DNA of 64,000 bases from Marasmius tenuissimus. Taxonomy: Eukaryota; Basidiomycota; Agaricomycetes; Agaricales; Marasmiaceae. Below, in pieces: positions 2,924 to 64,000 of the stretch. The first letter of the stretch is position 1, and every line of letters starts with the position of its first letter. The DNA is taken from positions 2,108,001 through 2,172,000 of the forward strand of contig JAQOTA010000069.1 in the NCBI GenBank assembly GCA_029532415.1. The letters run 5' to 3'. The translations under genes were made by a program, and so were the position numbers. The notes under the pieces are model-generated. The model ran no database searches. It had not been told where the DNA came from and saw nothing but the letters and a program-made list of their open reading frames with translations.

Positions 2924-4168
2924 TCAGCGCCAGGACATCCGAGGATCAAAGAAAAGACGGTCACACACCTCTGTAATCTTTCCGGGATGATCCTGGCTCT
3001 CTTGAAGTCGCGGGACGTCCACCGAGCCACAGGTTGAAGAAAAGCGTGCAATATTCCGAGACTGAAAAGACATCGTCTCATCCTCGATGTCGAGAATCCC
3101 TTCTTCGAGTAGGTGTCTTGACACTCCAACATTTCGGAAGACCGAGCAGGTCCTGCAGTGAAGAAACGCTAGGGTGATGACCGTGAATCCAATTCTATAT
3201 GCGGGGGGAATTGTCTCGAATCCCATAATGGAAATCAACATCAGATTGAATGACATCTGCATCCTTGAATCTTGGATTAAAAAGGGCGCGTTAGATCGTC
3301 GCAGGATATCAACTCACAAATAATATCGTTGGCCGTGTCGTAGGAGGGCTTTCGAAAAGGTGGGAACGTCCCTTGCTACGACCGCAATCTTGAGCCTCTC
3401 GAGGAGCCCTAGTCGCCGCATCGGGTAGACATCTGCTGGTGAGAGGACAAGGCCGCTGCTGGTCGCAAGGGCAATACAAGTGCCCTGGAAGGTGTTGAGC
3501 CCCATCGTGACTTGGATAAGGACGCCGTTTACGTTGGTGTGCATGCACGACCCCGTGCCGAGAATCCCTTCTTTGAAGAGAAAAGGGCTGACTGCCACGG
3601 AGGTTCCGGATGATATCAACCACACAGCCCCAAGGGACCGGGTGATCCAAGGACGATCGAGGTAAATGGCGTGAGTGCGGACGAGATGTAGCAATCCAAT
3701 CAACGTGTAGCTAAGAGACCATAAAGATGTGACAGCCAATGTTAGGGCGTTGCAATGGGAGCCGACCTCTGCAGCTGAGATAGGAGACTCAAAATGGTGT
3801 GCTCTCGATACAAGTCTAACGACTTACTCAGGAGAATTGCTTCGCAAAGCAAAACAGTGAAGGTAACAAGTCTATAGGTTTTGTGAGAGCTTCGATATTC
3901 TGATTGTTTTCAATTGAAAGATGTTCGCTTGCCTCGAAACCACGTATACTGCCTGGGGAAAGTGAAAACCGGACTTCCGTATTACTCGAAAGTCCACCTG
4001 AGCGTGAATCAGAATGTCCCAAGATACGAACTAAGTCTCCTCTGTTAACGCTGATAGTCGGAGTCTACGGAGAAAAGAAGATAGGCTTACTGCCAATGAG
4101 CCTATGGCAATGCAGCACAGGTGCTGCCTTTGGGTCAGGATCGAGTCAGAAGGTTCTGAGGGTGCCAT
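2924..4168 (-). CDS. Array family multi-pass membrane protein, copy A
   Basis: Five exons on the minus strand: 4168-4091, 4030-3933, 3871-3828, 3774-3318 and 3263-2924, about 338 residues and all in frame. It begins MAPSEPSDSILTQ, then QRQHLCC. Later landmarks are WDILIHAQVDF, HLVRTHAIYLDRPW, FSKALLRHGQRYYL and CRTCSVFRNVGVSRHL. Around seven hydrophobic segments are visible. Exon sizes (98, 44, 457 nt) and phases equal those of the other copies. Intron 2 starts GCAAGC instead of GT, a tolerated minor donor class. A TATA box lies 51 nt before the ATG. Family resemblance is to Agaricomycete orphan integral membrane proteins with FSKALL..G..YYL and C.VFRN motifs (recalled, not searched). Function unknown. 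Confidence 0.8.
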
Positions 4169-4218
4169 AACGAGGTTCTCGGATATTGAAGTATCGTATT
4201 CGTCGCTGTCGAGCAGGC

Positions 4219-4224
4219 TTTATA
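4219..4224 (-). promoter_or_regulatory. TATA box of copy A
   Basis: Minus-strand GAGTATAAAGCC, 51 nt before the ATG. Other copies keep a TATA box at a similar distance. Confidence 0.55.
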
Positions 4225-4800
4225 CTCTTGAGTTTTCTGCGTTGAGGTTGTCCTCGGTATGGCGAGAACGGATACGTACAGTACTTGTGTCTTTTGCAGT
4301 GCCAGCCTACCTCATATTATCCAAATGATATAAGTTTTCGGATATAATTAACTCATGCTTCGGAGGCTGCAATCACCGAGAGGCTATGGCCAGCAACTTT
4401 AACCTGGGCGGCGAAGTACTGCGGAGTGAGGCCTATACCGAGAGCACTTGTTCAAGCTAAGATCTAAGAGTTAATAGGTATCTATATTTTGCGCGACGAG
4501 TTGAACCTGAACCACGTGTGTATAGGTTTCCACTATAATCTCCTGGTAACCCCATAAGAACCGATCGAACTGCAGGCGCGCCGCTGATTTTCGTGTCGTC
4601 TTCCCAATGGCTGACTCCGAGCCCCTGCGGTGGGAACCCGCCCAAACATGATGAACAAGACGCAAATTCGGGAACGGACTTGCGTGCATCATCTCTGAGT
4701 GCGCCTTTCGGCACTTCACGACTCAAGACGTTTGCCTCAGCGCGGCACTCTGCATCATCTCAAGAGCTCGATAAAAAACTAGATGCAACCCAGCTAGACC

Positions 4801-6091
4801 CTACACCTGCTGGTTCGCGCACGATGGTCCGTCTCCTGATTGGATTCCTACAACTGGCTGGCGACTCGTATCATGAGTGGATATAAGATTCAATGAGGAA
4901 CGAGATGCCCCCACCACTCCTGCTTCAGTTGAAGCTTGGCTCTCTCCGACGCAGGAAGCATCTGCCTCGCCGCGAAAACCACGGAGGATCATATTCGACG
5001 TACACCGAGAAGAGATCGGCTCGCCGCCCATATCTGTCACTGCTTCTTCACGAAGGTGTTTCGATATCCCAATGTTCCGGAAGACTGAACACGACCTGCA
5101 ATGGAGAACAACGTAGGGTATACACGCAAAACCGATTCGATATGTAAGAGGGATGGACTCGATTCGGATCATGGCAATAAACGCCAGATAGTGAGACAAT
5201 TCCATCCTAGAACGAGAATCACGATCGAACTCAACGAAGTCAGGGTATCGACTCACAGGTAATATTGTTGCCCGTGTCGTAAAAGAGCTTTCGAGAAGTA
5301 GGGAATGTCTTTGGCTACAACTGCTGTCTTGAACTTCTCGAGGAACCCAGATTGCTTTGTGGTGTAGACATCGGGGAGAAGAATTAAGCCACTACTCGTC
5401 GCGAAGACAATGCAGGTGGCCTGAAGTGTATGGATACACAGCATGATCTGGATAAGGGTGGGGTTAACACCAGTGTGTGTACACAGGTCCGCGCCTATCA
5501 CGCCTCCTTCGAGCATAAAAGGACCAGTTGCCATGGAGGCTCCAGAAGATACGAGCCATACTATAAAGAGGCAGCGGGTCACCCAGGTACGACCAGAGGA
5601 GATGGCCTGAGTTCGTAGCAAATGTAGCCCCCCCATCAAGGTATAGTGAAGGGACCACACGCATGTCATTGCGAGATGAAGGGCACGACATCGCGAACTT
5701 CCATGCCGCGCACCTAGAGAAAAATTCAGTATGATGCACATCACGGGAGAGCTTTCTACTCACTCAAAATCACGGTTTCGAGGATCAAGAACGTCAAATT
5801 GACAAGCCTGTTTATATTGAGTTACAGTTTTTGTTCTATTGGTCAATTTGTTCGGAGCTCACCTCATACCCAGATATACTGCCTGCGGGAGGTGGAATCC
5901 GGACTTGTTCATGAGACGCAAATCGACTTGTGCGTGAAGAAGGATATCCCAAACATTGGCCTGAGGTAATGTGTGAAGTCAAGATATTCAGCTGGAGGAA
6001 GAGAACGCACTGCCAAGAGGCCCACAGCCACGCAACAAAGGTGACGTCGTTGTGTTAGAAGTGTTGAGTCCGAGGCTCCTAAAGATTCCAT
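4801..6091 (-). CDS. Array family multi-pass membrane protein, copy B
   Basis: Exons 6091-6011, 5960-5863, 5807-5764, 5713-5257 and 5206-4801; about 361 residues if the last exon is read through. In copies D and I a short intron falls near this C-terminus; here the frame is open across that point, so the last intron may be lost or retained. Starts MESLGASDSTLL with TQRRHLCC. It keeps WDILLHAQVDL, HLLRTQAIS, TWVTRCLF, FSKALLRHGQQYYL and CRSCSVFRNIGISKHLRE. Exon 2 has LMNKSGFHLPQA where most copies have LMRKSGFHLPQA. Intron 1 starts GTGCGT. Next to A in the same orientation, with about 630 nt between A's start and B's stop. Function unknown. Confidence 0.8.
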
Positions 6092-6142
6092 AGGTGAATC
6101 GATTTATGAGGTACTGGTTGGTGAGTTAATTCCAGAACGGTT

Positions 6143-6148
6143 CTTATA
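6143..6148 (-). promoter_or_regulatory. TATA box of copy B
   Basis: Minus-strand GAGAGTATAAGAACCG, 52 nt before the ATG; almost the same as the copy M promoter core (GAGTATATAAGAAC). Confidence 0.55.
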
Positions 6149-6179
6149 CTCTCCGCAGTGAACAAGATCGTAAACAACT

Positions 6180-8040: not shown

Positions 8041-8049
8041 CTCTGTATA

Positions 8050-8330
8050 CGCCACGCACGAGACATCCACATAGATCATACTGACGACGGGCTCGACGAT
8101 GAAGGAAATTTTTATCCCGGGGGCATCTCGATTGAACTCATCCATAGCCGACAAGGCACCAAGTCCTCTGGGTGGTCTTGTAATTACTGTCGCAAAGCCT
8201 CAACGGTTGCGGAGCACCTCGATTGCAAGTGAGGCATCGATTGTACGGACGGGCACAGCTGAAGTCTGTCCCTGCCCTCATGTCCCTGACGACTTGTTCC
8301 TCGAGGGTTCAGACGCGCAATTGAAATCGA
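8050..8330 (+). pseudogene. Relic of the CxxC...HxxH gene (second exon)
   Basis: Translation of 8070-8230 matches the second exon of the gene at 226-1215: ISIELIHSRQGTKSSGWSCNYC here against ISFELVHGRQDTKSFGWSCNYC there, followed by AEHLDCK against MEHLNHD. A GTGAGG donor follows at the same place, and the downstream exon start (a Val-Pro-Asp-Asp stretch near 8280) also survives. The last His is replaced by Cys, which could still bind metal. No convincing homologous first exon is seen upstream, so I call it a partial copy. Confidence 0.45.
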
Positions 8331-8471: not shown

Positions 8472-9698
8472 TCATTCTCTTCCTTGAGCCTGGCGTTCTT
8501 CCGAATTGACCTCGGGTGTGCTCTCCTGACGATCCTGTACACACGTGCCTCCCTGCAGCTCTGAGCTTGCCCTGTGCTGGAAAGAGCGAGGGCTAGCATC
8601 TCTACGGAAAGACAACGGGAGGTCAACGATGAGCTCCTCAGTAACGTATTTCGTCTTTCCGAGATTCCGGAAAATTGAGCATGCCGCGCAATGCAGGACG
8701 GCATGCATAACTACCATCATCCCTACGCGATATGCGAGAGGAATTCCATCGATGCTGATTCCGATGGCCGTGAAAAGGTTGACGCACAAGAGCAGACTAA
8801 CGATGGACAATATATCACTGTAGTCTCTTGGAAACGAAGCGCACACTCACAGATAATAACCTTGACTGTGACGCAGGAAAGATTTTGAGAATGCCGGCAA
8901 ATCTTTCGCCGTGATTGAGGTTTTCACTCTCTCGACAAACCCCCAGTTTTTGGTAAACGGAAACTCCGCAGGAGAGATGACAAGACTGCCGCTTGTCGCG
9001 AGAACAATGCATGTACCTTGGACAGTATTGATTGTGAATGTGATTTGTTGGAGGGTATGATTAAACTGAGTGTGTGTACAGGAGCCTCCAGCAACGGTGA
9101 CTCCATCGAGAATGAAGGGGCAGACAGCAATTGAGGTCCCCGACGATATTATCCAGGTTAGGGCAAAAAATCGAATCACCCACGGACTGTCCAGGTAGAT
9201 GGCCCGTACGCGTAACAGATGCAACAGACCTACTGAGGCGTAGTGGAAAGATCCCAGAGATGTAACGACAGTTTTCAGGACGCCACAGTACGAGCCAACC
9301 TGGGCAGCTTGAGGAAGATTAGAAAGAGAAAATTGTACGAAGAATGGGATCACTGACTCAGAAGCACCGTTTCGCACAGTAGAAATACGACGGTGGTGGT
9401 TCTAAGTGAGGGCGGCGGCGTTAGCGAATGTGTCGGGAGATCTTGTGATAGTCAGCACTCGGTGCTAACCTCATTAATATGTAGACTATCTGAGGCAGAT
9501 GCACCCCACTTCTGCGGATCAGCCCAAAGTCAACTCGCAAGTGAATCAGGACATCCCAAAGCACAACCTGAGCCTTCGTGAGATAGCAATTTTCAAGGAC
9601 AAAAAGAGACTAACTGCCAATGAACCCACGACAACATAACACAGATGACACCTCTGTGACATACTCAAGGGATCGAGAGGGACGTGGTCTATAGCCAT
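8472..9698 (-). CDS. Array family multi-pass membrane protein, copy C (divergent)
   Basis: Exons 9698-9615, 9567-9470, 9401-9358, 9307-8851 and 8817-8472; about 342 residues. Exon 2, 3 and 4 lengths (98, 44, 457 nt) and all phases match the rest of the array, but sequence is clearly more distant: start MAIDHVPLDPLSM, exon 2 with LIRRSGVHLPQI, exon 4 ending FSKSFLRHSQGYYL, and exon 5 with CAACSIFRNLGKTKYVTEEL in place of CRSCSVFRNVGISKHLRE. It is the only full member of this sub-branch here; a matching exon 5 fragment lies on the plus strand at 25.0 kb. Probably intact. Confidence 0.78.
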
Positions 9699-13202: not shown

Positions 13203-15164
13203 ATGGATCGGCATCCGCTAGACGCATGGTCAAGGCCAGGAGGAGAGATATACAATGATATGCCTGGGCTAGTGGAAGCACCACCGTTAGGGCCTTCGAT
13301 ACCACCTCCACCAGGAGCTAGGTATGAAGGAGGTGGAGGCATGTTTACAGCATTTCCCGGTGTAGCTGCTGGGTACGTTCTCTTCTGATTCGATACCATA
13401 CCTGACTCTTACTCAACATTTTGTTATACGACTATTCTACTTACGACGGGACAGCCCCTCACCAGGACACGCCGGACACACACCCCTCCCACAGTTCAAC
13501 CAGAATCCACACCACCCCGCTCATCACTTACCACACCTCCCGTACCCTCATAATACGAATCCATACCCACACCATCCACATTTTCAATATACACCCTTTC
13601 CATTTTCACCATTCCAGCCGCTTCCCGCTCTCCACCATCAGGCGGGGCCATCATGGCATGGTTACCCCCACCCCCACTCCCAATTTACACCTGGATCAGC
13701 CCCTTACCCCCACCTGCCCCATCCGGCTTGGCCTAACGCTCAAGTTCCAGGCCACGAGATACCCCACGAAGACCCCAACCGTGGGCGTCCAGAACGCAAT
13801 TGGTTCGTCGAGAAAGCAGAGAGTGAGCGTAGGGCGAGGTCACAATCCGTACGACGGAGGAAGAGATCCAAATCACCGTTTGCTGGACCGTTCCCTGGGT
13901 TTGGTGCTGAGGGAGGGGTCGGGCTGGAGGGTGATAGTTACTTTGGCCACGAAGGCGAGGACAATCCATGGCAGAAACTACATGGGGCACATGGGCATGG
14001 ACATGGACATGAGCACGGTGGAGAAACCGATTGGGATGCTCTCGACCGCGGATTCGGGGGGCTTGCCATCGGAGGTGGTGGAGGAGGAAAAGGAAGAGGA
14101 ATATTGAAAAAGCCACGTTCCAACTCGTTCAGCGGCGGCGTCCACCCACCTGCTCTCCATCATCGTTCAACGTCAAACCCAAACCCGATATTCAGTGGTT
14201 ACCACCTAACGTACGAGCAACACATGCAGCGGAACGGGCTTTACGGAGGGAGAGAAGACGAGTTGCCTTACAGACCGAGTACCTGGCGAACCGAATACTC
14301 GGTCAAGGGTGGAATGATGGATGCATTGTTCAGGCAGAACAGTGATGTGAGAGGTACGTCGAAATATGCATCCTTCCTTCCATCTGTTCGTCGGGTCTAA
14401 CCTCCATGGACTAAGTAATCAACGACAACGTCAAACGAACTCTCCATCCGCACCTCCTCTACGATTCGGCGAGTCCCCTCCCACCAATCTCCCTCGACCT
14501 TCGCCTGAACCCCCGAATCCCATCAACTCTCACGCCAGCCCTGAGCCTCCTCACTCTCCCCAAAAACCCACACAAACTCTCCGAAATCGACCTCGTCCAA
14601 TTCGCTACACACCCTCCAACATCGAACATGCGTCTATTCCATAAACGCCTCCCTTGGTACATCGACGTTGTAAACCGCACAGGGTACATCACAGTCCAAG
14701 ATATCATCCACGCCCTGCACAACACCTTAACAGGAAGCGGTATGGGAGGGAAGAGTCAAGTCACGGCAGCAGAGTATTGGTGTGGCGAAATGGGAGAACA
14801 TGTTGATGTTGCTACCTCAACTCCGACGGCGACACCGTTGAGATCGTTGGCTCCACTACCGGGCCTTGGGTGGAGTGGACAGAGAAGACCGAAACGTACG
14901 GCGAGAGAGCAAGTGAGCATGTCGTGGCGTGTCCGTGGTCAACTTGCGCACACCGTTGAGTGGTTGGAATCTCTCGCGAGGGGGTACCACGATGATTTGG
15001 CTCGGCAGGATGGAGTGAAGGCCGAACAAGATGAGTTAGAGAGGGGGGTTAGGAGGGTTGATTGGTTGGCTATTGGGTCAAATGTGGACGATCAGAGGAC
15101 ATTTAGGTGGATTGGGTTGAAGAAGGGGAGGAGGGGGATGTGGGAGGTTGTTACCGAGGTGTGA
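13203..15164 (+). CDS. DUF6699-domain protein with long disordered N-terminus
   Basis: Three exons, 13203-13372, 13455-14353 and 14416-15164, join perfectly in frame to about 605 residues; both introns start GTACGT. The first 350 residues are low complexity: Pro/His/Tyr-rich repeats, an Arg/Ser patch (RRARSQSVRRRKRSKS), a His-rich stretch HGAHGHGHGHEHGG, then a Gly run and ILKKPRSNSF. The C-terminal third carries the fungal DUF6699 pattern: LHPHLLYD, ISLDLRLNP, FATHPPTSNMRLF, LPWYIDVVN, ITVQDIIHALH and a late EYWCGEM. Basidiomycete DUF6699 proteins usually have the domain at the C-terminus after a disordered region, as here. Molecular role unknown. Strand is certain from frame continuity. Confidence 0.78.
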
Positions 15165-16270: not shown

Positions 16271-16275
16271 TTTTA

Positions 16276-16526
16276 CAGCCGCTATCATAATCGTAGACCG
16301 GTTTTGGATATTTTTCCGTTGCGCGCCTTTGTTTATACCAAACAACCCAGCTCCACCTCGACTGAATATCCCGACGGGGGCGCTCGATGTCGGGGTGGGG
16401 CTGAGGATGCGGGGCTTCCATGTGAGGCATCTTCTCAGGCCCATTATAGGTTTTTTGTGTTTGGTATAAACAAAGTCGGGCAACGAAAAAAGAAGGAAAA
16501 CCGGTCTACGATTATGATAGCGGCTG
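16276..16526. mobile_element. MITE, mariner-like, about 251 bp, TA target duplication
   Basis: The ends are inverted copies: CAGCCGCTATCATAATCGTA at the left and its complement at the right, with similarity continuing for about 65 nt per arm. TA flanks both sides (16274-16275 and 16527-16528). No transposase frame fits inside, so it is non-autonomous. The paralogous block at about 21.0 kb reads CCCCTTTTGTGCCAGCAAAC where this locus has the element between CCCTTT and TGCCAGCAAAC, which is an empty site and confirms a true insertion. The TA duplication suggests Tc1/mariner mobilisation (established rule for that superfamily; assignment is inference). Confidence 0.85.
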
Positions 16527-17237
16527 TATGCCAGCAAACTGTTCCGGATCCTCGTGTCTCAAATACCGGAAACTTGACGCTTCTTGTCCTTGCGCCGCTC
16601 TTCTAGGATGCAAAGCATTTTCGAGGGTGTATATATCACCTCGACGTGAGCTCTGTATACAGATCAGAAAAATTGGGTTGGCACCTGCAAAGACATGTAA
16701 AACCCAGCACTGCGCACCATTATTGACTAGCAAAATTATCCACAGCGGTAGTCATCCACTAGAAGTTCTCTACCTCCAAATAGTCGTGGAGACCGAATTT
16801 GCCCTTCGGGTTGTTTGAACGATTCGAGTAGCGTAAGTGCGGCTATCAGCATCGTTGTCCGTGAGGTAAGAGGTGGAGAAGTCATGATGCATGATGTCCA
16901 GGTTGAAGGGGACGGCCCAGATGAGCGCTCGCTTGCGGCTTCTCAAAGGGGAGGCTAGATTCTCACGCGAGGGTTTTGACTTTTCCCCCCCCTCCTTTAC
17001 CTTCCCAGTGCTTCGGCTGGTACTTGTCGTCACTCTCTTCGCAAATCGCCATTTTAGAAGGACAAATCTCGAAGACGCACTCACTGAACCGGATGTACTG
17101 GATGTGCGTATCATCTGAACGTAGGAGATCTATTTTCTAGAAACTGGCGTGCTGGGTGAGTTATTTTGTCCTGCACCCCGACCGAAAGACCGGATCTTGA
17201 TGGTCATTGAGGCACTGATACATCGATGGGTAGGGTG

Positions 17238-17287: not shown

Positions 17288-18573
17288 ATGGAATCTTCGG
17301 GGGCATCGGTGTCAACACTGCAGTCACAACGAAGTCACCTTTGCTGTCTTGCTGCAGGCTTATTAGCGGTGAGCTCTCTTTCGTCTGCGCAGATATCTTG
17401 AGCCCTGAGAACACTGCAGGCCTACCTATGGGACGTCCTTCTTCATGCACGAGTTGATTTTCAACTCATGCGCAAGTCCGGATTCCACCTCCCGCAGGCA
17501 GTATATCTGGCAACGAGGTAAACTCTCATGATCATAGGTCAGCCAGAAGAAGTAACTATATCATACCCAAACAGAATTGCGATCTTGACGTTCCTGAGTC
17601 TGGAAGTTGTAATCTTGGGTGGGTTGGTTCCTCCTTGCAGTGTGCATCGTGATGAACCTTTCCTTCCAGTCGCGCAAGTTGGAAGTAAGCGTTGTCGGGT
17701 CCTCCATCTCGCGGTGACATACTTGTGGTCCCTTGACTATACCTTGATGGGGTGGCTCCATCTACTACGAACTCGTGCCATCTCTTTCGAACGTACTTGG
17801 GTGGTTCGATCTCTATCTATTTTATGGCTGATATCTTCTGGGACTTCTATGGCGTTTAGTTCCTACGTTATCCAAGGAGGATTAATCGACAACACGAACC
17901 TATGTATGCACATCAGCGTTAACCCCACCCTCGTGCAAATCCTGCTGTGCATCAATGCATTCCAAGTCACTTGCATATTCCTCGCGACCAGCAGCGGTCT
18001 TGCACTTCTGCCCGAGGTATACACTATGGGTCAAGTCGGATTCCTTGAAAAAATGAAGGTTGCAGTCACAGCCAAGGACATTCCCTCGTTTTCAAGAGCA
18101 TTGTTACGACACGGACAACGACATTACCTGTGAGTCAACTTTATCGTCACATGTTTCAATCGTGATCCTCATTTTCAGTCTCGAGTTGTGCGGTTGTCTG
18201 GCGTTTGCTCCCATGATGGGAACTGAAACCATTCCCCTTGCATATCGCATCGGGTCTTCGCTCGTAGTCCATATCTTTGTCAACTATCGATCGTGTTCAG
18301 TATTCCGGAACGTCGGGATATCAAACCACCTTCGCAAAGAAGAAATGAGCGACATGACCGACGAGCCGATTGCTTTTCGGTCTGGGTCGAATATCGCCGT
18401 CGGTACTTCTCGTGGCGAGGCTGATTCTTCGCATTATGAAGAGGGGCAACTTGATACGACGGACACAGGTGGTGAGTGGCTGCTCCATGCCTAATATATT
18501 ATCCGTTCATTGTATGAGTTGACAGCGGACAATCGGTCCAGTCGAGAGACCGCACGCGAGCCAGTCGGTCTAG
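17288..18573 (+). CDS. Array family multi-pass membrane protein, copy D
   Basis: Six exons: 17288-17368, 17420-17517, 17575-17618, 17670-18129, 18179-18471 and 18542-18573, about 335 residues; the total is divisible by three. Motifs: MESSGASVSTLQSQRSHLCC, LWDVLLHARVDFQ, LMRKSGFHLPQA, HLLRTRAISFERTW, FSRALLRHGQRHYL and CSVFRNVGISNHLRKEE. The exon 6 acceptor is a choice: CCAG at 18538-18541 gives a short tail ending in SQSV, like the QTV and QSA ends of I and E; reading through would stop at 18494. Exon 5 begins LELCGCLAFAPMMG, nearly the same as copy I although I lies 16 kb away on the other strand, so these two may be recent relatives. Function unknown. Confidence 0.82.
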
Positions 18574-23193: not shown

Positions 23194-24461
23194 ATGGATC
23201 CCTTGGGAACCGTGGACTCAACGCTGCGAACACAACAGCATCATCTTTGCTGTATTGTTGCGGGCTCATCGGCAGTGAGTTCTCCTTGCTTGTCTAACTA
23301 CTTTGGTTGTTGATACCATTGCAGGTCTACCTTTGGGATATCATAACACACGCACGATTGGACTTCCGTCTTATGCGTAAGTCCGGATTCCACCTTCCAC
23401 AAGCAATCTATCTGGCATCAAGGTGCGCTCACATCGTTATAATGAATTGGCCAGACTCCAGAGGGATGAAAGCTAAGACACTTTTAGACTTGTGTTTTTG
23501 GCACTTCTGATTCTAGAAACCGTCTTCTTGGGTAAGTTGGTTCTTCCTTGTGGTGTAGATGATAATGATCCTTCTGTTTCAGCTACACGGGCTAAAAGTT
23601 TGCATCAGTGTCGAGCCCTTCATCTTGGGGTTATATGTGTGTGGTCCCTTCACTATACCTTGATAGGGGCGCTCCATCATCTACGAACTCGTGCCGTCTT
23701 CTTCGACCGTACTTGGGTGGTCCGTTGCATCTTTGGTGTATGGCTGATTTCTTCCGGAGCTTCCGTGGCAATCAGTCCTCTTATAACCCAAGGAAGAGTG
23801 ATTGACGCGAACCTTTGCATGCACAGTAATTTCAACTTGACCCCCGCACAGATCGTGTTGTGTGTCCATGCATTGCAAGCCTCCGTTACGGTCTTTACAA
23901 CGAGCAGTGGCCTTGTCCTTTCCCCCGTTGTCTACACCACAGGCCACACTCGGTTTATCGATCAGTTGAAAGTCGCAATCATAGCCACTGGTCTTCCCTC
24001 CTTTTCAAAAGCACTTTTACGACACGAACAACGGTTCTACCTGTGAGTTCATATCCCAACCTTCGCTATGCTTTAATTGTGATTCCCATTCTAGGATGGT
24101 ACTGTCTCACGGTGTAGCACTTGTTCCCATTATCACAATGAAGGCCATTCCTGTTGCATATCGCGTGGGATTTGTGATCATAGGTCACGTCTTCTTGGAC
24201 TGTAGATCTTGCTCGATCTTCCGAAACGTTGGCGTATCAATACACTTTCGCGAAGAAGACAAAACCGACATTGCTAATGAGCCGATCTCATTTTCGAGGT
24301 CCAGGCCCAATACTGTTACCCTCCGGAGTGTTGCCCGCAGCGAAGCAGGCGCTTCATGCTTTGAAGGGAGCCAAGGTATGAAGCATATAGTGGTGGTGGG
24401 TGGCATTTTGGACCTCAGGTTTACGCTCGCTCATTTCACGAGCCTACAGCCCATCGCATGA
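23194..24461 (+). CDS. Array family multi-pass membrane protein, copy G
   Basis: Exons 23194-23274, 23325-23422, 23488-23531, 23583-24042 and 24095-24461, about 349 residues. Start MDPLGTVDSTLRTQQHHLCC; later LWDIITHARLDFR, LMRKSGFHLPQA, HHLRTRAVFFDRTW, FSKALLRHEQRFYL and CRSCSIFRNVGVSIHF. The last segment ends FTSLQPIA then stop, where E continues PIAENRSGG, so G has lost the exon 6 tail by a change to TGA. All splice sites up to exon 5 are canonical. It is the duplicate of copy E. Confidence 0.8.
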
Positions 24462-25014: not shown

Positions 25015-25290
25015 CGTGTTGATCGTGTGCCCAGTATTCTCGTGAGCGTTAACCTCATTGTGGCTATCGCAATAAGAATCCACGCCATCTTACTTGCATA
25101 TCACGTAGAGATGTTGATTGCCACTCACGCCGTCCTACATTGTGCAGCTTGTCCTGTCTCCCGGGATGTCAGGAAATCGAGATACATTACTCAGGAGCTC
25201 ATCGACAATCTCCCGATATCATTTCTTAAAGACTCAGGTCCTTGTTCTTCCCGACATTCGGCAAGCTCATTATTAAGTGTTACAGAAAGG
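25015..25290 (+). pseudogene. Array family exon 5 fragment of the copy C type
   Basis: Translation contains LAYHVEMLIATHAVLHCAAC, then PVSRDVRKSRYITQELIDNL, which follows copy C exon 5 (LAYRVGMMVVMHAVLHCAAC, SIFRNLGKTKYVTEELIVDL) closely and the other copies poorly. No exon 1-4 remains upstream. It shows that the C sub-branch once had at least two loci. Confidence 0.65.
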
Positions 25291-25519: not shown

Positions 25520-26694
25520 TCAAGGCGTGGAGCTTGAAATGCGTGTCCCGCCGCAGGAGGTACGGCCCAAGGTGATATTTGACCTTGGGTGAAAGGAGAT
25601 TGACTCGTTGGTTACTATGTCGATGAATCCTTCCTCGCGAAGATGCTTGGATATCCCCATATTCCGGAAAACTGAGCACGATCGGCAGTTAAGGAAAGCA
25701 CGACCTAAAATCACAAAAGCGATGCAATATGCATCCGGGACGGCCTTCATTGTGATTATGGGAATGACAGTCACATCGCGGAAAAGCGCCGCACTGAAAA
25801 TAATCACAAGTTGGAGCAGATTGAAGGTGCATTGTTGAAACTTGAGATATTGACTTACATATAGTATCGTTGCTCGTGTCGCAAAAGGGCTCTCGAAAAG
25901 GGAGGAACATCTTTGGCCATAATTACGACCTTCAGCTTCTCGAAAAATGGTGATCGCGTTGTGGTGTAGTCGCCGGGGGTAAGGACAAGGCCATTACACA
26001 TTGCAAAGACAACAGAAGTGCTTCGAAATGTATGAAGGTACACCTTGATTTGTGCGAGGGTTGTGTCCCGTATGCACGTATTTGTGCTAACCATGCCTCC
26101 TTGGAGGAGGAAGGGACTACTTGCTATGGTTGCTCCAGAATCTATCACCCACGAAACGAACAGACACCGAACTACCCAAGTATGGTCGAGAGAGATGGCA
26201 CGGGTTCGTAACAGATGCAGCCCCCCCGTCAAGGTATAGTCAAGGGACCACAAATATGGTACTGCAAGGTGAAGGATGCGACAAAGTGAGCTTTCGGCTG
26301 GAACAGCTAGGAGAGAAGGCTCATTACAGTGCACAACGCAAGGTGCAACCTACTTACTCAGAATCACAGTTTCAAGAACCAAGAGCGCCAAAACCACAAG
26401 TCTGATCGGACTTCGTGAGCGATGTAGCCTTCATTCTTTTGGGTGAGGCTCACCTCATAGTCACATATACTGCCTGCGGGAGGTGAAACCCAGACTTGCG
26501 CATAAGCCGGATATCAACTCGTGCATGGAGGAGGATGTCCCAAATATAGGCCTATAGTAGTGTCCGAATGTTATCAGTGGTCGTGCTAGGTGGCTAGAGA
26601 AAGGAGGACTCGCTGCCAAAGACCCCACAAGTATACAACAAAGGTGACGCCGTTGTGACTGAAGGGCTGAATCTGTAGCTCCTGAAGATTCCAT
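25520..26694 (-). CDS. Array family multi-pass membrane protein, copy H
   Basis: Exons 26694-26614, 26551-26454, 26401-26358, 26306-25859 and 25793-25520, about 314 residues, the shortest complete copy. Exon 4 is 9 nt shorter than usual, in the loop where others have DLCMHTSVNPTL. Intron 1 has a GC donor (GCA then GCGAGT). Starts MESSGATDSALQSQRRHLCC and keeps IWDILLHARVDI, HLLRTRAISLDHTW, FSRALLRHEQRYYM and CRSCSVFRNMGISKHLRE. The C-terminus ends early at ISSSTP because the frame differs from copy M in this segment, so the usual tail is lost. No clear TATA box upstream. Probably expressed if the GC donor is used. Confidence 0.72.
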
Positions 26695-32081: not shown

Positions 32082-32951
32082 TTCATTGACTGATCCCTGT
32101 GTTAGTAACTTATGTAGTCTATCGGTTTTGTATCCGGCATTATGCCGTTCATATCTCTGACTATGTATCTGAACTTGATCAACCTGGGGTCTGTTGTCCG
32201 GTACGAAAGCTAGCACAAGTGTAACTCACACATGGAAATCTGCAATCTACGATATATAGAATTCCGCCTCGAGGTCACTCGAGATCCTGCTATAAATCGA
32301 ATGCAATCGGACTAGACGGATTGGTTCGCATATGTTCGCCTTTCGCTTAGCTGGGTCCCCACGATGGCGTCTGACAGCCACTAAGCGTTGCTTGAATTCG
32401 AGGGTTCCAAACTTAGTCCATTTTGTGAACGGTATTACGAGTTTGACGTTGATGTATTGATCCAGTGTAGTATCCCTTTCTCCGTGGAAGCCTCGCATAG
32501 TTGTTGCAAGAGCGCCGAGGGTATCTACGACGGCATCAAACAAGGACTCATACAGGCAATCATGAGTGGGAGCATTACTGGGCTCTTTGAGTGGTAAGCT
32601 ACAGCTCGCCGAGAAGTTGTAGCATGCTGTATCGGCAATCGCTTGGCTGCGAGAAATTGTTGAAGTAATTGGGATTCGGACAAGTGCCGGCGACGGGCGT
32701 CTGATACCTCGAAGTCCTTTATAAGGTTGTTGCGACTCTCTGTGGTATCACCGAACCATGGCCATTGCAATATTGTTTTATCATGATGCTTGAGCCTTGT
32801 GGGCTCTGAAGAGGTCATGGGCATGCGTCTGAGATATGAAATAGCATCATAAGAGTAACATCGCATTCAGCCTAACAACTTTTAAGTGACGGTATAGTTG
32901 AAAGGCCAAAGGCAGGAGAAGGAAGGGTGAAAGACAGAAGGAGGCTGTCAG
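32082..32951. other. Gap between DUF6534 copy 1 and copy I
   Basis: The first 300 nt match 43.85-44.15 kb (segmental duplication). A minus-strand stretch near 32.38-32.58 kb reads FDAVVDTLGALATTMRGFHG and could be an exon of an unknown gene, but no start or partner exons are convincing. Confidence 0.35.
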
Positions 32952-34256
32952 CTAGACTGTTTGATTCCCATATGCCCGTCTGCCTCCTGACTGAATCCCT
33001 GCAGTGGGCTGAGGGCTTACACGGTGAGCAGGACGTAAGAATAGGTATCGAACTAACACCCACTGTTTCTGTGTTCGTTGTACTCTGAGTCGCGTCAAGG
33101 CGCGAAACGTCCACCTGAGCGCGAGAGGCATGGAGGTTGATACTATCCGACCCGGACGGCCTAAAAAATATCGGCTCATCGATCATGTCGATCAGACCCA
33201 TTCCTTCCTCGCGAAGGTGCTTTGTTATACCGATATTCCGGAAGACTGAACATGATCTGCAATTGACGAAGACGTGGGCTATGAGCGAGATTCCGATGCG
33301 ATATGCAAGGGGAATGGTCTCAATTCCCATCATGGGGGCGAATGCCAGACAGCCACACAGTTCAATGCTGGGAATAAGAATTACTATGGATCTCGAACGC
33401 GGTAAAGAGACATCCAAGTTGACTCACAGGTAGTGTCGTTGTCCATGTCGTAAAAGCACCTTTGAAAAGGACGGAATGTCCTTTGCTATGACTGCGAGCT
33501 TCAACTTCTCGAGAAATCCGGTCTGGCCCGTGGTGTATACATCGGGCGGGAGTACAAGACCACTGCTGGTCGCAAAGACTACAAAAGTGACTTGAACTGC
33601 ATTGATGCACAGCAGAATTTGCACGAGGGTGGGGTTGATGTTGGTATGCATGCACAGGCTTGTGTTGCCAATCAAGCCTCCTTGGATAACGTAGGCACTA
33701 AATGCTATTGAGGTCCCAGAAGATATCAGCCATAGAATAAAGAGACACCGGACCATCCATGTACGGTCAAGGGAGATGGCACGAGTTCGTAATAGATGGA
33801 GCCCTCCCATTAAGGTAAAGTGAAGGGCCCACATGGCAGTCATCACGAGATGAAGAGCGCGACAACTCGAATTGGAACCAACAGGAGCACCTAGGCACAA
33901 AAAAAAACCTTCATAGCCGCGTTTCAAGGAGACATTATTTAACATACCCAGGAGCACTGTCTCACAAAGCAAGAAGATGAATGTAGCAAACCTGGTGGAA
34001 TGTGGTGAGAGCTTTGGTCCCTTTGGCTGACAATTTGAGCTCACCTCATTGCCACATATACAGCCTGTGGGAGGTGAAACCCGGACTTGCGCATGAGCTG
34101 AAAATCAACTCGTGCGTGAAGCAAAACGTCCCAAAGATAAACCTGTAGTATTATCAGCATTCAAGCCAGTAGGCCAAAAAAAAGAGAGCTTACCGCCAAT
34201 GAGCCCGCAGCAATACAGCAAAGATGACGCCGTTGTGTTTGAAGTGCCGAGTCCAT
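32952..34256 (-). CDS. Array family multi-pass membrane protein, copy I
   Basis: The best-resolved copy: six exons 34256-34194, 34142-34045, 33991-33948, 33890-33428, 33367-33060 and 32998-32952, about 340 residues with every phase in agreement. Start MDSALQTQRRHLCC is a few codons shorter than in B or D. Then LWDVLLHARVDFQ, LMRKSGFHLPQA, HLLRTRAISLDRTW, FSKVLLRHGQRHYL and CRSCSVFRNIGITKHLRE. Exon 6 gives GIQSGGRRAYGNQTV, which defines the true C-terminus of the family. Exon 4 is 6 nt longer than usual. Likely functional. Confidence 0.85.
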
Positions 34257-35700: not shown

Positions 35701-36189
35701 AAGGTCTGTTACCATGTGCTGTCATTGCAAGGCTCTCAAAGACTCTGGTGTAAGTGAGAGTTCAAACCCAGGACCGTGATTATACTATACAAAACACCCT
35801 CATCTCTTGAGGCCTAGCTCTTATATGGCACCGCGGGATGTTCCGGCTGAAGCTCTACGGGAAGGAATACAACAACTCCAACAAATCGAGTTCAATCAGC
35901 GGGAAGCAGCAATCTCGGGGAAAAGTCTCCGGTCATCATGACTACTGCGAGTTTGGGGCTATCGAAATTGGTAAATTGTCAAGAATTTAATGTGAGCTTC
36001 AATGTGGCGTGTCATTTATCTAAGTCATAAAAAGAACGAACTGAAGTAAACGCATTAGAGAAAGGGTAGTTCACAAAGTCAAGATAGCACGACGAAAGAA
36101 TAGGACAAAATCTACGGAACATGTATCCAAAATGTCCAAAAAAAAATGATAAAGGCAAGCGAATGCAAAAGACAAGGGGACATTATCAG

Positions 36190-37468
36190 TTAGGCTGACA
36201 AGTTTGTGTAGGGTCGTCTGCCTCCTGACTGGACTCCTGCCATGGACTGTGGGCACATATGTTAGATCGAAGGATAGATTTTAGGCCGAGGAAGACGCTA
36301 CCCACTATTTCTGTTTCGGGTGAATTTTGGTTCTCGGTGTGAGACGCACGGAGATCAATACTATCTGAACGAGTCCTAAACGAGATTGACTCGTTGTTTA
36401 TGTCGATTGTTCCTTCGTCGCGGAGATACTTTGATATCCCGACGTTCCGAAAGACTGAACACGATCTACAGTGGACAAAGACATGGGCAACGAGCACGGA
36501 TCCGATGCGATATGCAAGGGGAATCGTCTTGATTCCCATTACGGGAGTGAACGCCAGGCAGCCACACAATTCAATACTGAAAATGGAGATCAATGTCGGA
36601 GGGTCGTGCCAAGACATTAACTCATAGGTAGTGTCGTTGACCGTGCCGCAAAAGTGCTTTTGAGAAGGTGGGAATGTCCTTAGCCAGGATTGCGACCTTC
36701 AATTTTTGGAGGAATCCGGGTTGACCCGTGGCATATACCCCGGGCGCAATAATAAGGCCACTGCTCGCCGCAAGAACTATGCAAGTGCCTTGGAATGCAT
36801 CGATGCCCAACAAAAGTTGCACGAGGGTGGAATTGACACTGGTGTGCATGCACAGGTCGGTGCTGATTATTCCTCCTTGGATAACATAAGGATTAACTGC
36901 CATGGAGGTCCCGGAAGATAGCAACCATATAGCGAAGAGACACCGGACCACCCAAGTACGGTCGAGGGAGATGGCGCGGGTTCGTAATAGATGTAGTCCC
37001 CCCATCAAGGCATAGTCAAGGCTCCACAAAGATGTCACTGCGAGATGGAGGGCACGACAGCGCTTACTACTAACTCGCGCAGCTGAAAGAAAGGATTCAT
37101 TACAATACAAGCTACAAGGAAAAGCACCTCACCCAAGATCACGGTTTCAAGACTCAAGAGTGTCAAACTCACGAGTCTGATTATAGGTCAGCACAAGTCA
37201 TTCTGTGGGCCGATAATGTGAGTGAGGTGACTGACCTCATTGTAGTGTATATAGCCTGCGGGAGGTGAAATCCGGACTTGCGCATAAGTTGAACATCAAC
37301 TCGTGCGTGTAGTATAATGTCCAAAACGTAGGCCTATAGTATCATCATGAGTGAGGACACTGGTTAGCCATACAGAAGGAAACTCACTGCCAGTGAGCCT
37401 ACAGTGATATATAGAAGGTGACGCCGTTGCATTTCAAGTGCTGAGTCCAAACCTTCCGTGAAGTCCAT
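36190..37468 (-). pseudogene. Array family copy J with mutated intron 4 donor
   Basis: Exons 37468-37388, 37333-37236, 37176-37133 and 37082-36626 are open and have normal borders. The next intron should start GTGAGT; here the minus strand reads CT then ATGAGT (plus-strand ctcatag where other copies have ctcacag). Reading into the intron gives Leu then TGA, so the product would be 227 residues ending RHGQRHYL and would lack the last membrane segments. Exons 36576-36302 and 36236-36190 are still in frame and end GVQSGGRRPYTNLSA, so splicing would restore 333 residues. The original ATG position reads TTG, but an in-frame ATG lies six codons upstream (MDFTEGLDSALEMQRRH). A second change is Leu for the conserved Trp in exon 2 (AYVLDI). 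Confidence 0.75.
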
Positions 37469-44144: not shown

Positions 44145-44660
44145 CATTCGATAAGTGGTACATCGATCTAGAAAACGGGCTACCACTCACCACCTCTGCT
44201 TCCGTCGAGTTTCGGCTTCCCTCAGGGTGCGAAACGCCTGACTCACTGCGAGAGGCACAGCTCCAAGTGATATCCGACCTGGACCGAAAAGACATTGTTT
44301 AGTCGTAGATGTCGATGACCCCTTCTTCGCGAAGATGCTTCGATATCCCGATGATGGTCCGGAAAGTTGAGCACGATGTGGAGTGAATGAAGACGTGGCA
44401 TGTAATCATAAATTCGATGTGATATGTGACGGGGAAGGCCTCAATTGTCAACAAGGGAATGGACGCCAGGAGTAACACAGGTATATCCTGAAATGGGGAT
44501 CACAATCGAAGGTCGTATTGGAGGCGCGGAGTTGGGATATGGACTCACAGGTAATGCTGTTGTTCGAGTCGTGAAAGAGTCTTTGAAAAAGAGGGGATGT
44601 CTTCAGTAGCTGTGATCGCGGCCTTCAACTTCTCCAAGATCTGTGATTGACTAGACCTGT
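44145..44660 (-). pseudogene. Array family relic: exon 5 and the end of exon 4
   Basis: Minus strand keeps the exon 4 end (IPSFSKTLSRLEQQHYL), the GTGAGT donor, and a decayed exon 5 in which the VFRN region is disrupted (extra bases at CGATGATGGTCCGG). The C-terminal exon 5 part reaches 44150, where it abuts the duplicated DUF6534 flank. Upstream of 44660 similarity stops abruptly. Confidence 0.7.
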
Positions 44661-44679
44661 GACAGGCCCTTCGATGAGC

Positions 44680-49569: not shown

Positions 49570-49840
49570 TGCCGACCCGCGATCGAGAAGATCATTTCAA
49601 CTACGCAGATACCAATAAGCGTGCTGTGTAGAGCGTCGGGGGTAAGAAGAAGGCCATTGCATGCTGCAAAGGCGATACAGGTCCCTTTTGGGTCCCTTGG
49701 AATGTTTGAATACCTAGTTTGATCTGTAGTAGGACAGAGTTGATGTCGATAGTGCCTCCTCTGAGAACGTAAGGATTAAGCGCCATAGAAGCTCCACAAG
49801 ACGCCAGCCATAAAGCAAAGAGACTGTTTGAAGCGCCTCG
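49570..49840 (-). pseudogene. Array family exon 4 fragment
   Basis: Minus-strand translation gives SSGTSMALNPYV-like and LRGGTIDINSVLLQIKLGIQ followed by FQGT, matching the middle of exon 4 of copy J (SSGTSMAVNPYV, GIDAFQGTC). Frame is broken (the FQGT segment is followed by a short duplication, CCCTTTTGGGTCCCTTGG) and no other exon is found. Confidence 0.65.
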
Positions 49841-50439
49841 GTGTTCATAGGTCCCAAAGATTTCAAATGTGGGAACCGTGAGATCAGTATTGGTCGCGAC
49901 TCCTGCACACGGTTCTTATCTACTCTGCGACGATGATCACTTGATGCGTTCTAGCGGTCCGCAACGTCCAGCATCTGGGGTGCAGGTGAAATTAACTCGC
50001 ATCACAACATGCCAAATTCGGATCACGGATTTCTGTTGGAACCTTTCTCCTGAACAAGACGCTTACCTCCTCTGGCGTAAAAGTGATATGCAGTGCGCGA
50101 AGGTGAGCATAGATTCCAAGCTTGGCTGATCGTCGTAGTAACGCTGAGTACATCTTGAAAGATACTGGACCTGCTGCTTGAGACTTAGCGGGAACTGCCA
50201 GACAACTTGGTGTAGGAAAAGAAATCTGTAAAAAATGGGTTGCGAATGAAAACTAGTAAAGTTCAAAGGGTCCGACTGTTTGACGTCTAGGAGTAACCCA
50301 TATGTGACAACTCGTCAAACTCTTCCAACTCAAAAGCCTTCTATGCCACCACAAAACTAGATGAGACCTGAATACGCCGATTGGCTCCCACACGTTTATC
50401 TACCTCCTGGTTGAAGCACTTCGATAGGCTATCAATTCG

Positions 50440-51696
50440 TGCAGTGAGCAAAACATAAATTAGGGATCGGCTTAGTGCCACTCACCCGGGCCGCCTCTGC
50501 TACTGTCGAATTTTGGCTCTCTTCGAGGCGTGTAACATCTGCCTCCAGGCTGCGAGAAGTACGGAGACTAATATCACTATTCGACCGAGAATAAAAAGAG
50601 ATCGGCTCGTCGTTTATCATGTCGATCATTCCTTCTTCGCGAAGATGCTTCGAAATCCCGACGTTCCGAAAAACCGAGCACGCCCTGCAGTGATTAAAGA
50701 GGTGGGCTACAATCACAAATCCGATACGATATGTCACGGAGATGGACTTGACTGTCATCACGGGAATAGCCGCCAGAAAGCGAAACAGCTCCGCTCTGGA
50801 ATGGAGATCACAATCGGAACGTATGGGAGAGGTGGTGTCGGCATATAAACTCACAAGTAGTATTGTTGTTCGTGCCGTAAAAGTGCTTTTGAGAAGGAGG
50901 GCAAATCTTTGGCCACAATTGCCGTCTCCAGTTTGCTTAGGAAGCCAGTCTTCTTCCCAGTGTGGACTTCCGGTACAACGTTGAGGCCATTGTTAGCCGC
51001 AAAAACAAAACAGGTGCTTTGGAATGCGTTGATGCACATCACAATCTGTGCGAGAGTGGGATTGTGGCTGGTATGCATGCACAGATCCTTTCCGATCATA
51101 CCTCCCTGGAGGATGAAAGGACTGACCGCTATAGAGGTTCCAGCAGAGAGTAGCCACAGAGTAAAGAGACCCCGGACCGCCCAAGTATGGTCAAGGGAGA
51201 TGGCGCGAGCCCGCAGGAGGTGCAGGCCCCCCATCAACGTATATTGAAGGGCCCACACGCATGTCATCATATGATGAAGGGCACGACAACGCGAACCAAT
51301 AGGGGCGCCTGGGAACAGAAGAATATTATGACTGCGTCCCGGACTCGGTGAGATCGATAAACCTACTTAAAAGCACCGTTTCGCAAAGCAAAAAGACAAA
51401 CTTAGCGAATCTGATTAGACGTAATAAGGTTTTTGGTTCCGTTGAACGGTTGATGTGAGTTCACCTCATTGCTACGTATATTGCCTGCGGGAGATGAAAT
51501 CCGGACTTGCGGATGAGCTGGAGATCGATTTTGCGTGGATGAGAACGTCCCAGAGGTAAATCTGGTACGCTATCAAGAGGAAAGGCGATTGGCCAGACAA
51601 ACTTGGAGAACTCACCGCCAATGAACCTGCAGCTATACAACAAAGGTGACGTCGCTGTGTTAGAAGCGGGGAGTCAGAGGCTTCCAGAGAGCTCAT
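50440..51696 (-). pseudogene. Array family copy L with a 1-nt deletion in exon 2
   Basis: Exons at 51696-51616, 51561-51465, 51410-51367, 51308-50855 and from 50795. Exon 2 is 97 nt; it is 98 nt in every other measurable copy. The frame reads IYLWDVLIHAK and then continues as IDLQLIRKSGFHLPQAIYVA in another frame, so a base is missing within 51521-51537. Otherwise exons 1-5 are well kept: MSSLEASDSPLLTQRRHLCC, HLLRARAISLDHTW, FSKALLRHEQQYYL and CRACSVFRNVGISKHLRE. The exon 6 region has an extra stop (GGAGGTAGATAAACG). Either a recent pseudogene or an assembly error at one base. Confidence 0.75.
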
Positions 51697-54312: not shown

Positions 54313-55639
54313 CTACACCAACTGATCCGCATACGTCTGTCTGCCTCCGGGCTGAGCATGCGCGCGAACCCCTCCAACAGGCTGTGGATTCATTTGATAA
54401 GCAAAGCATAGACTAGAAATTAGATTACCACTCGCCGCTTCTGTTGCAGTCGAATTCCGGCTTTCATCAAGACGCAAAACGTCTGTCTGCCCGTGAGAAG
54501 CACGGAGGCTGGAAGTATCCTGCCGAGACCGAAAAGAAATCGGCTCGTCGCTAATCATATCGATCGTTCCTTCTTCGCGAAGATGCTGGGATATCCCAAT
54601 GTTCCGGAAAACTGAGCACGATCGGCAGTTGATAAAAACATGGCCTAGCATCACGAAACCAATGCGATATGCAACGGGAATGGCCTTCATCATGATCATG
54701 AGAACAATAGTCAGATCGCGAGACAGTGCCGTCCTGAAAAGAGTCACAAATTGGAGCTTATCGGAGGTGTGATGTTGGGATACTGACTCACAGGTAGTAC
54801 TGTTGCTCGTGTCGTAAAAGTGCTTTTGAAAAGGAGGGAACGTCTTTGGCTATGATCGCAATCTTGAGCTTCTCGAAGAACCGCGATTCCGCCGTGGTGT
54901 AGACATCGGGGGTGACGATGAGACCGCCACACACTACAAAGACAGTGAATGTGCTTCGAAATGTATGGAGATACAGTAAGATTTGCGAGAGGGTTGTGTC
55001 ATAACCGGTGTGCGTGCACATATCCGCGCTAAAAATGCCTCCTTGGAGGAGAAAAGGACTACTCGCCATAAAGGTTCCAGAAGAAATGACCCATATAACG
55101 AAAAGACACCGGACGACCCAAGTACGGTCGAAAGAGACGGCACGAGTTCGTAAAAAATGGAGCCCTCCAATCAAGGTATAGTCAAGGGACCACAGACACG
55201 TTATTGCGAGATGAAGGTTTCGACAACGAGAACTTCTGGCTGGCAAAGCTAGTAGAAAAAGCCCATCACAATGCATGAAGTACGAAGCAAAAAGAAACCT
55301 ACGTACCCAAAATCACGTATTCAAGAACTAAGAGTGGCGGAATTACAAGTCTGATTATACAATTTCGTAAGTAATGCAGCCCTCAAAGTTGTTTTTTTTT
55401 TTTTGGTTGAAGCTCACCTCATAGTTACATAAACTGCCTGCGGGAGGTGAAATCCAGACTTGCGCATGAGCTGAATATCGACTCTTGCATGAAGGAGGAT
55501 GTCCCAAATATAGACCTAAGCAGGGCCGTATAATTAGACATCCAACTAGAAAGCCTAAAGAAGAACTTGCCGCCAGTGAGCCCACAACGATACAAGAAAG
55601 GTGACGCCGTTGGGATTCCAACGCTTCTAGAGGTTCCAT
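54313..55639 (-). CDS. Array family multi-pass membrane protein, copy M
   Basis: Exons 55639-55571, 55515-55418, 55350-55307, 55248-54792 and 54733-54313, about 362 residues if the C-terminal part is read through. Intron 1 has a GC donor (GCG then GCAAGT). Start MEPLEALESQRRHLSCI; later IWDILLHARVDIQ, LMRKSGFHLPQA, HFLRTRAVSFDRTW, FSKALLRHEQQYYL and CRSCSVFRNIGISQHLREE. The C-terminus ends ADQLV, like the QTV and QQV ends of I and B. Closest in exons 4-5 to copy H (both have HTFRST and an ITMKA/IMMKA motif). Likely functional. Confidence 0.8.
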
Positions 55640-60350: not shown

Positions 60351-60359
60351 ATACCATTT

Positions 60360-60650: not shown

Positions 60651-60669
60651 GTAAAGACGGAATCTCGCC

Positions 60670-61660: not shown

Positions 61661-61664
61661 AGCC

Positions 61665-62275: not shown

Positions 62276-62279
62276 CAGA

Positions 62280-63050
62280 CAGCATGGGAGAGCCCCGTTC
62301 TTCCACATAAGAGAAGTCAGAACAAGATCGACTCTGTATGTTATGTCACCATCAAACATGAACGCGCAGTCAGCCCCTCGCGGTCACAATATTCTCCGTC
62401 TTTCTAGGTCGCACATCCATTTTGAAGTTAGCAAGAGTGCGGTGAAGTGCACACAAATCCGATGATTGCGGGTTCACAATTCTCACTCTCCCCATAAACC
62501 GATACCCAAGGAAAAAGACATGAAACCGCGTTCCCAGAAGAACCCCGATCTCCGCCTTCTCGGGCCATCGTGTTTAGGTTTCTCGCTGACGATTGATTAG
62601 TTTGATGCCGATTTACAACCTCCCGCGCCGACTCTGCATGAAAGGAATGTGACGCGAAGACGAACTCGATGACGACAAGAAGCTATCTCGATGCTTGCTG
62701 TTCGGTGGCGTTGTGACGTGTGCTGTAGTGCTACTTTCGATTTCTGTGTCTACTCTCCTTGTTATTCCCTTGCTTCCTGCTTCAGTACGCTTATTTGATA
62801 TGGTACTTGGAGCTCGTTAAACATCTGTTACATTTCCACTCTAGATTCCTCCTCCTAGACCTTTTCTCTCTTTTCGTACCTGTGGTACCTTTCCGGACTA
62901 CCGGTGTTCGGCGCATGTTTTATTGTGATTGCGGGATGGCTGCTCCTTGCCATCAAAACCTAACGTGCTGGATAACTTATCCCGTATACCAGTTGACGGT
63001 GGAGAGTGCATTGATGGTTGCCCTCTGTTCGAGCCCATCCCACTTCAGAG
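62280..63050. other. Intergenic upstream of copy N
   Basis: No supported gene. A hydrophobic frame around 62759-62900 has no recognisable family. Confidence 0.35.
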
Positions 63051-63058
63051 TATATAAG
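63051..63058 (+). promoter_or_regulatory. TATA box of copy N
   Basis: GAGTATATAAGAG, 41 nt before the ATG; same core as copy M. Confidence 0.55.
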
Positions 63059-63091
63059 AGTCGTGTTCGAGGATTACGAGCAGGACCATCT

Positions 63092-64000
63092 ATGGAATCA
63101 GGAGCCTTAGACTCAACGCTTCAACAACAGCGTCACCTTTGTTGTATCATTGCGGGCTCACTGGCGGCAAGTTCTCCTTTCTTTCACCACCTAGCCCGAC
63201 TACTAGTAACATAACACTGCTGCAGGTCTATCTTTGGGACGTCCTCCTTCATGCACGAGTTGATTTTCAGCTGATGCGCAAGTCTGGATTTCAACTCCCG
63301 CAGGCAGTATATGTAACAATGAGGTGAGCCTCAGCCAAAAGACCGATTATTGTGTCACATACCAACCATAATCAGACTTGTTATTTTGGCACTGTTGGCT
63401 CTTGAAACTGCGATGACAGGTAAGTGAGTTTATTCCTGTGTTGTGCATCGTAATGATGTTTCCTTCTAGCTGTGCCACTTGGACCCTCGCGTTGTCGCAT
63501 CCTCAATCGCGCGTCAGTATTCATGTGGACCTTTGACTATACCTTGATGGGCGGACTTCATCTGTTACGAACTCGTGCCATTTCCCTTGACCATACTTGG
63601 ATGGTTCGGTGTCTCTTTATTCTATGGTTGATATCTTCTGGAGTCACTATGGGGCTAGGTCCCCACGTTGTAGCACGAGGCACAGTGGGCAAGACGGACC
63701 TGTGCATGCACACCAGCATTAACCTCGCCCTGGCACCAATCATACTGTCCCTCCATGTGTTTCTAAGCACATTTGCTGTCTTTGCAGCGTGTAGCGGCCT
63801 CATCCTCACCCCCGATGTCTACACCACCGCGCAATCACGGTTCCTTGAGAAGCTCAGGATCGCAATTGTAGCCAAAGACATTCCCTCTTTTTCAAAATCG
63901 CTCTTACGACACGAACAAGGGTTCTACTTGTGAGTTGACCGTTGATCTCCCAATGTTATGCTCCAATCCTTTACCCCATTTTAGGATCGCAGTGTCTCAT
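63092..64000 (+). CDS. Array family multi-pass membrane protein, copy N (runs off the window)
   Basis: Exons 63092-63166, 63226-63323, 63377 to about 63420, about 63470-63929 and 63985 onward; the window ends inside exon 5. Intron 1 uses a GC donor (GCG then GCAAGT). Start MESGALDSTLQQQRHLCC; then LWDVLLHARVDFQ, LMRKSGFQLPQA, HLLRTRAISLDHTW, FSKSLLRHEQGFYL. In exon 4 the segment LGPHVVARGTVGKTDLCMHT replaces the usual SPF..QGG, and ALAPIILSLHVFLSTFAVFA is close to the H and M type. No frame damage in the visible part. Confidence 0.78.

Follow-up and report, generated by a model that had tools for sequence, protein, structure and literature searches.

The closest described system is SNB1 of Coprinopsis cinerea, a DUF6533 protein with seven predicted transmembrane (TM) segments and the N-terminus outside. 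It is required for fruiting-body patterning, with a knockout phenotype in Coprinopsis. Its authors state that no G protein-coupled receptor (GPCR) class fits SNB1 and that a mechanism could not be assigned (PMC10949477). DUF6534 proteins of Agaricomycotina were proposed by Liu et al. as a new GPCR class; in the same article, Ste2-type receptors are reported as exclusive to Ascomycota. Several fungal GPCR classes are given there as reduced or absent in Basidiomycota (PMC12842992). DUF6533 and DUF6534 are both among the enriched domains of a Ganoderma study (PMC8955403). No statement of a Ste2-like fold for DUF6533 proteins was found in the literature passages searched. The DNA described here, the window, is a stretch of 64,000 nucleotides, positions 2108001-2172000 of contig C19 (JAQOTA010000069.1) in the 71 Mb genome of Marasmius tenuissimus, which is named among the causes of cacao thread blight (PMC8581569). 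It contains an array of 12 gene-like copies and five relics of one gene family.

The array is most likely a set of cell-surface chemoreceptors of GPCR fold with fast turnover, formed by a Marasmius-expanded relative of DUF6533 proteins; confidence in this reading is moderate. The initial annotation had called the family orphan and its relatives uncharacterised. Both terms need amending: the family is related to DUF6533, and a DUF6533 protein, SNB1, has the knockout phenotype cited above.

Kinship with DUF6533 and predicted fold

DUF6533 (PF20151 / IPR045340) is matched in Pfam scans by seven of nine window copies when expect values (E) up to 10 are admitted, the strongest match having E 4.9e-4. 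Where shown, the match falls on the N-terminal TM1-TM2, at model positions 1 to 43 or 45 of 46; the position is the same in these copies and in 7/7 relatives. Matches below the cut-off occur also in 8/8 proteins of another set (six from Marasmius, one model from contig C39 and copy C) and in 4/5 proteins of a further scanned set. The curated cut-off of 24.1 bits is reached by no member with a printed score (best 21.6, P0008). Profile-profile alignment of the family with DUF6533 by hhalign gave a score of 34.5 and a probability of 75 over 42 columns, compared with 13.3 for the reversed profile and at most 17.4 for 40 column shuffles. Profiles were built from 28 open copies and nine relatives, and from 12 DUF6533 stretches of the same genome (10 taken as hits, two by place). 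Homology of TM1-TM2 to DUF6533 is supported by this sequence test. Because the profiles match, yet scores stay below the cut-off and no family locus is found with the DUF6533 model, the family is classified on sequence as a divergent relative of DUF6533 proteins, not as a Pfam DUF6533 member. Seven predicted TM segments are shared with DUF6533 proteins. Differs from them in the motif WD..H..D..R instead of YD..L..E..RY, and in being a Marasmius-expanded tandem array. SNB1 is likened to the family through DUF6533.

DUF6534 (PF20152) likewise comprises numerous basidiomycete 7-TM proteins, but is a separate Pfam family, and no scanned family member gave a DUF6534 row. One DUF6534 pair lies within the window, at 29.9-32.3 kb and 41.7-44.1 kb (+): a duplicated gene of 7-TM type, with blocks 75-80% identical, possibly decayed.

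Pfam scans at E up to 10 gave no STE2 (PF02116) row, HMMER filters discarding most weak matches, and no credible additional domain. No solved structure could be linked to the family by sequence, with E up to 10 allowed. An Sru GPCR row in P0015 (E 0.024) is sub-threshold and is counted as weak support only. Judged as chance: NCBIfam rows for phosphoethanolamine transferase (E 0.0032) and PspC (E 0.43), in one member each; Pfam zf-RING_13 (E 0.092) and TctC (E 0.18), in one copy each; and YbgT_YccB (E 0.15) in P0003.

Seven TM segments are placed on the predicted model of a paralogue from the same contig, in agreement with the earlier count of about seven hydrophobic segments. With VIA-align, Ste2 is the best row for both predicted models (root-mean-square deviation 3.3 over 234 and 245 residues); for model 1, AdipoR and rhodopsin rows are close behind Ste2 and other GPCRs. 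Best Foldseek rows are class A peptide/chemokine GPCRs, with query TM-scores of about 0.3-0.5 only. Matches in a viral structure library are chiefly viral GPCRs, some rows being unnamed. The structure comparison covers the families present in the structure lists. The GPCR-type bundle of seven helices, its Ste2-like arrangement and a hairpin of strands in extracellular loop 2 (ECL2) are features of predicted models, in which the extracellular loops are short. Two cysteines, C75 and C146, at the top of TM3 and in ECL2, are present without exception in the 28 open copies. Cysteines at these two positions are a GPCR hallmark. Lysine and arginine content peaks in the presumed inner loops.

ECL2 strands with a TM3-ECL2 cysteine pair are a class A feature. 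The class D arrangement has H4 shifted inside by about 20 A. By these predicted strands and cysteine positions, and by the top Foldseek rows, the family resembles class A peptide/chemokine GPCRs; it differs from them in that DRY and NPxxY are absent from the family alignment (TM3 ends mostly in RTRA, TM7 in SCSVFRN) and Z is lower than for Ste2. Likeness to Ste2 (class D) lies in the VIA-align ranking of the predicted models. Differs from Ste2 in the class A-like ECL2 and cysteine pair, in sequence (9-12% identity, no STE2 profile row), in the absence from TM7 of the family alignment of LPLSSMWA, the H7 motif of class D Ste2 (PMC8942848), and in phylum, Ste2 being reported from Ascomycota only (PMC12842992). 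A weak STE2-profile match (L057, C20:118230-118436, E 0.0062, below cut-off) lies in a different 7-TM-like gene, which may be another Ste2-like candidate.

Variability and selection across the membrane

Gene models, 38 in number, were built from part of the genome's loci; 28 were kept for selection tests. Excluded were ten frameshifted, stop-bearing or partial models, including one C16 gene split across two stretches. P0009, whose start appears mis-spliced, was excluded from A5 and A6. Column entropy, computed for the 28 copies, stands at 1.70 bits on the outside and at 1.21 bits on the inside. The loop after the ISSG segment, ECL2, is variable as the initial annotation held, at 1.61 bits; variation is higher still at the outer ends of TM6 (2.35), TM7 (2.04) and TM5 (1.79). 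The loop before the exon 4/5 junction, intracellular loop (ICL) 3, had been described as strongly kept; this applies to its second half only (1.22 versus 1.74).

Main selection figures are from six non-overlapping pairs out of 33 with a proportion of synonymous differences (pS) below 0.5. Constraint is demonstrated, the ratio of nonsynonymous to synonymous rates (dN/dS) being 0.43 over these independent close pairs, and so is an asymmetry of change. The ratio of nonsynonymous to synonymous proportions (pN/pS) is 0.78 in outer and 0.37 in inner helix halves (difference 0.41, confidence interval (CI) 0.23-0.63), and 0.64 in ECLs and 0.36 in ICLs (difference 0.28, CI 0.08-0.50). The contrast between outer and inner halves survives midpoint shifts of up to 3 residues. 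With pN alone, the outside is higher in 6/6 pairs (difference 0.079, CI 0.037-0.123). Among 128 helix orientations, the observed ratio difference is reached by one, the observed orientation itself, and the pN difference by three, the observed one included. In the close pair of C10 loci L040 and L041, pN exceeds pS in outer helix halves (0.264 versus 0.130); positive selection is not claimed, since this excess rests on few sites.

Array layout, copies and turnover

Nine open copies (A, B, C, D, E, G, I, J, P), two damaged ones and one cut by the window end make up the 12 gene-like copies. These numbers are as first counted. Of the six relics then proposed, the scan with the family hidden Markov model (HMM) supports five (F, H, R, L, N; R weakly), which brings the family loci of the window to 17 instead of 18. 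What had been taken for a sixth relic may be the exon 5 block of relic F, which stands apart. Gene models are from splice-aware alignment; the common structure proposed earlier is confirmed, with four introns of phase 0,2,1,2 where complete. Family loci of the window:

2924..4168 (-), copy A, open gene, 338 amino acids (aa); intron 2 GC-AG
4801..6091 (-), copy B, open gene, 361 aa; used as reference copy
8472..9698 (-), copy C, open gene, 335 aa; clade differs from other window copies
17288..18494 (+), copy D, open gene, 332 aa
19374..20671 (+), copy E, open gene, 362 aa
21567..22398 (+), relic F, exon 4 and exon 5 fragments with stops
23194..24461 (+), copy G, open gene, 349 aa; nearest copy E
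25039..25230 (+), relic H, exon 5 fragment
25520..26694 (-), copy I, open gene, 314 aa; intron 1 GC-AG
32902..34256 (-), copy J, open gene, 378 aa
35612..35698 (-), relic R, short exon 4 fragment; weak, E 0.0016
36186..37468 (-), copy K, gene-like; intron 4 donor without GT
44302..44667 (-), relic L, end of exon 4 and exon 5
49620..49831 (-), relic N, exon 4 fragment
50432..51696 (-), copy O, gene-like; exon 2 frameshift
54313..55639 (-), copy P, open gene, 362 aa; intron 1 GC-AG
63092..64000 (+), copy Q, exons 1-4 and start of exon 5; cut at window end; intron 1 GC-AG

A match to the last exon of copy Q was found across the window end by genome search. A frameshift in copy K, suggested by the aligner score, was rejected in favour of the lost splice donor of intron 4. 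Introns starting with GC are four: A intron 2 (3872-3932), I intron 1 (26552-26613), P intron 1 (55516-55570) and Q intron 1 (63167-63225). Main family sites agree between tblastn and the family HMM. The six-frame HMM scan gave four extra weak rows (E 0.5-0.6), left uncounted, and zero rows on the reversed window as control. Site S (28.9-29.6 kb) was dropped as a family locus (tblastn E 0.16, no HMM row there). Four motifs had been named as shared by the copies; each is matched at 10 to 14 sites in the window, but QRRHLCC is not confined to the family, at least two of its 14 matches lying outside family genes.

Genome search with one query gave 133 matches, merged into 57 loci, a lower bound in which damaged copies are included. 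Thirty-nine lie at 1.94-2.23 Mb of C19, 14 of them inside the window; the remainder elsewhere on C19 and on C16, C10, C3 and C30, with four distant loci on C39. Among the 28 open copies, placed in one tree together with 10 relatives, E pairs with G, I with P and D with J; copy A groups with a protein of Marasmius sp. AFHP31, and two M. fiardii proteins pair in another clade. From these groupings the family is seen, on sequence, to turn over within Marasmius; together with the five relics, the array bears out the local expansion with decay first described. Homologue searches, in which only the approximately 8000 candidates with most words in common were scored, gave 10 rows for window copies and 12 for their Marasmius relatives, all Marasmius. 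One spliced C39 model is matched at 100% by PM082_021832, a protein of M. tenuissimus PM082. A C39 subgroup query reaches M. crinis-equi, Dendrothele bispora (E 9.6e-28) and Leucocoprinus birnbaumii (E 3.6e-15).

Other features of the window are a gene with a DUF6699 match (E 1.9e-16) at 14415-15164 (+), between copies C and D; short inverted repeat arms flanking a small spacer at about 16275-16528, like a small non-autonomous transposable element (by eye); and similar protein stretches (SxGWSCNYC) at about 950-1090 and 8100-8230 (+), which look like one gene and part of another copy (by eye).

Competing explanations and proposed mechanism

The receptor role, at first based on topology and birth-and-death pattern, is now favoured by the GPCR-like predicted fold, the invariant TM3/ECL2 cysteine pair and the faster extracellular change. 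Two outcomes named beforehand as contrary to it did not occur: no credible match to a transporter or enzyme family was found, and the predicted topology is 7 TM. Several observations weigh against it or against the kinships proposed with it. The DUF6533 model lists 115 genome matches at E 0.001, with zero family loci among them. Class D kinship has predicted folds as its sole basis, and the sequence tests for it are negative. With all 33 close pairs pooled, outer pN/pS is 0.64 and inner 0.41, the same direction with a smaller contrast; pS is lower on the outer side, and the outer ratio is inflated for that reason. The patterning role of SNB1, placed by its authors outside the GPCR classes (PMC10949477), would suit an SNB1-like structural or developmental 7-TM protein that is no ligand-gated GPCR, the copies diverging because constraint was relaxed once they had duplicated; such weak constraint agrees with the dN/dS range of the 18 closest pairs listed (0.27-0.64) and with the several relics. 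Copy decay, arrangement in local arrays and the faster change on the extracellular side are likewise compatible with membrane recognition proteins, for self/non-self or for conflict with other organisms, with the 7-TM fold merely a platform.

Relaxation alone would predict neither the faster extracellular change in 6/6 pairs nor two cysteines invariant in 28/28 copies, and a family of more than 50 loci is easier to reconcile with a recognition repertoire than with a patterning factor; the SNB1-like explanation is regarded as unlikely. A recognition platform is less probable still: extracellular loops are short, the Pfam scans gave no credible extra domain, and much of the change is in the outer helix ends, as small-ligand pockets would show. 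Least probable is a transporter, channel or membrane enzyme, PAQR/adiponectin-receptor-like or rhodopsin-like. A retinal lysine marks rhodopsin, and PAQR proteins are defined by histidines. TM7 lacks lysine in 28/28 open copies, the sole invariant histidine is at the inner end of TM1, no HlyIII or rhodopsin row was obtained in the Pfam scans, and Ste2 outranks these families in both predicted models, close as the AdipoR and rhodopsin rows are in one.

As chemoreceptors, the proteins would have the N-terminus outside. A small ligand or peptide would bind between the outer helix ends, chiefly of TM5, TM6 and TM7; the ECL2 hairpin would cover the pocket, pinned to TM3 by a putative disulfide. Each copy may sense its own cue, as proposed because the copies diverge mainly at the outer pocket. 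The signal would pass to a heterotrimeric G protein via the conserved cytoplasmic side, consisting of ICL1, the inner helix ends, the second half of ICL3 and the FRN end of TM7. G-alpha and STE3 genes are present in the genome. This anatomy, with a kept cytoplasmic side, a variable outer pocket and ECL2 held to TM3, fits a receptor repertoire.

A wider proposal, possible but doubtful, is that the DUF6533 superfamily, with the array as a fast-evolving branch, represents class D (Ste2-type) GPCRs of Basidiomycota, radiated into large chemoreceptor repertoires. If so, class D GPCRs would occur in a phylum reported to be without Ste2, in repertoires comparable to animal odorant-receptor clusters, and SNB1 would gain a mechanism as receptor for a developmental cue. 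With its Ste2-like predicted fold and extracellular diversification, the array is a concrete, testable candidate for a sensor repertoire.

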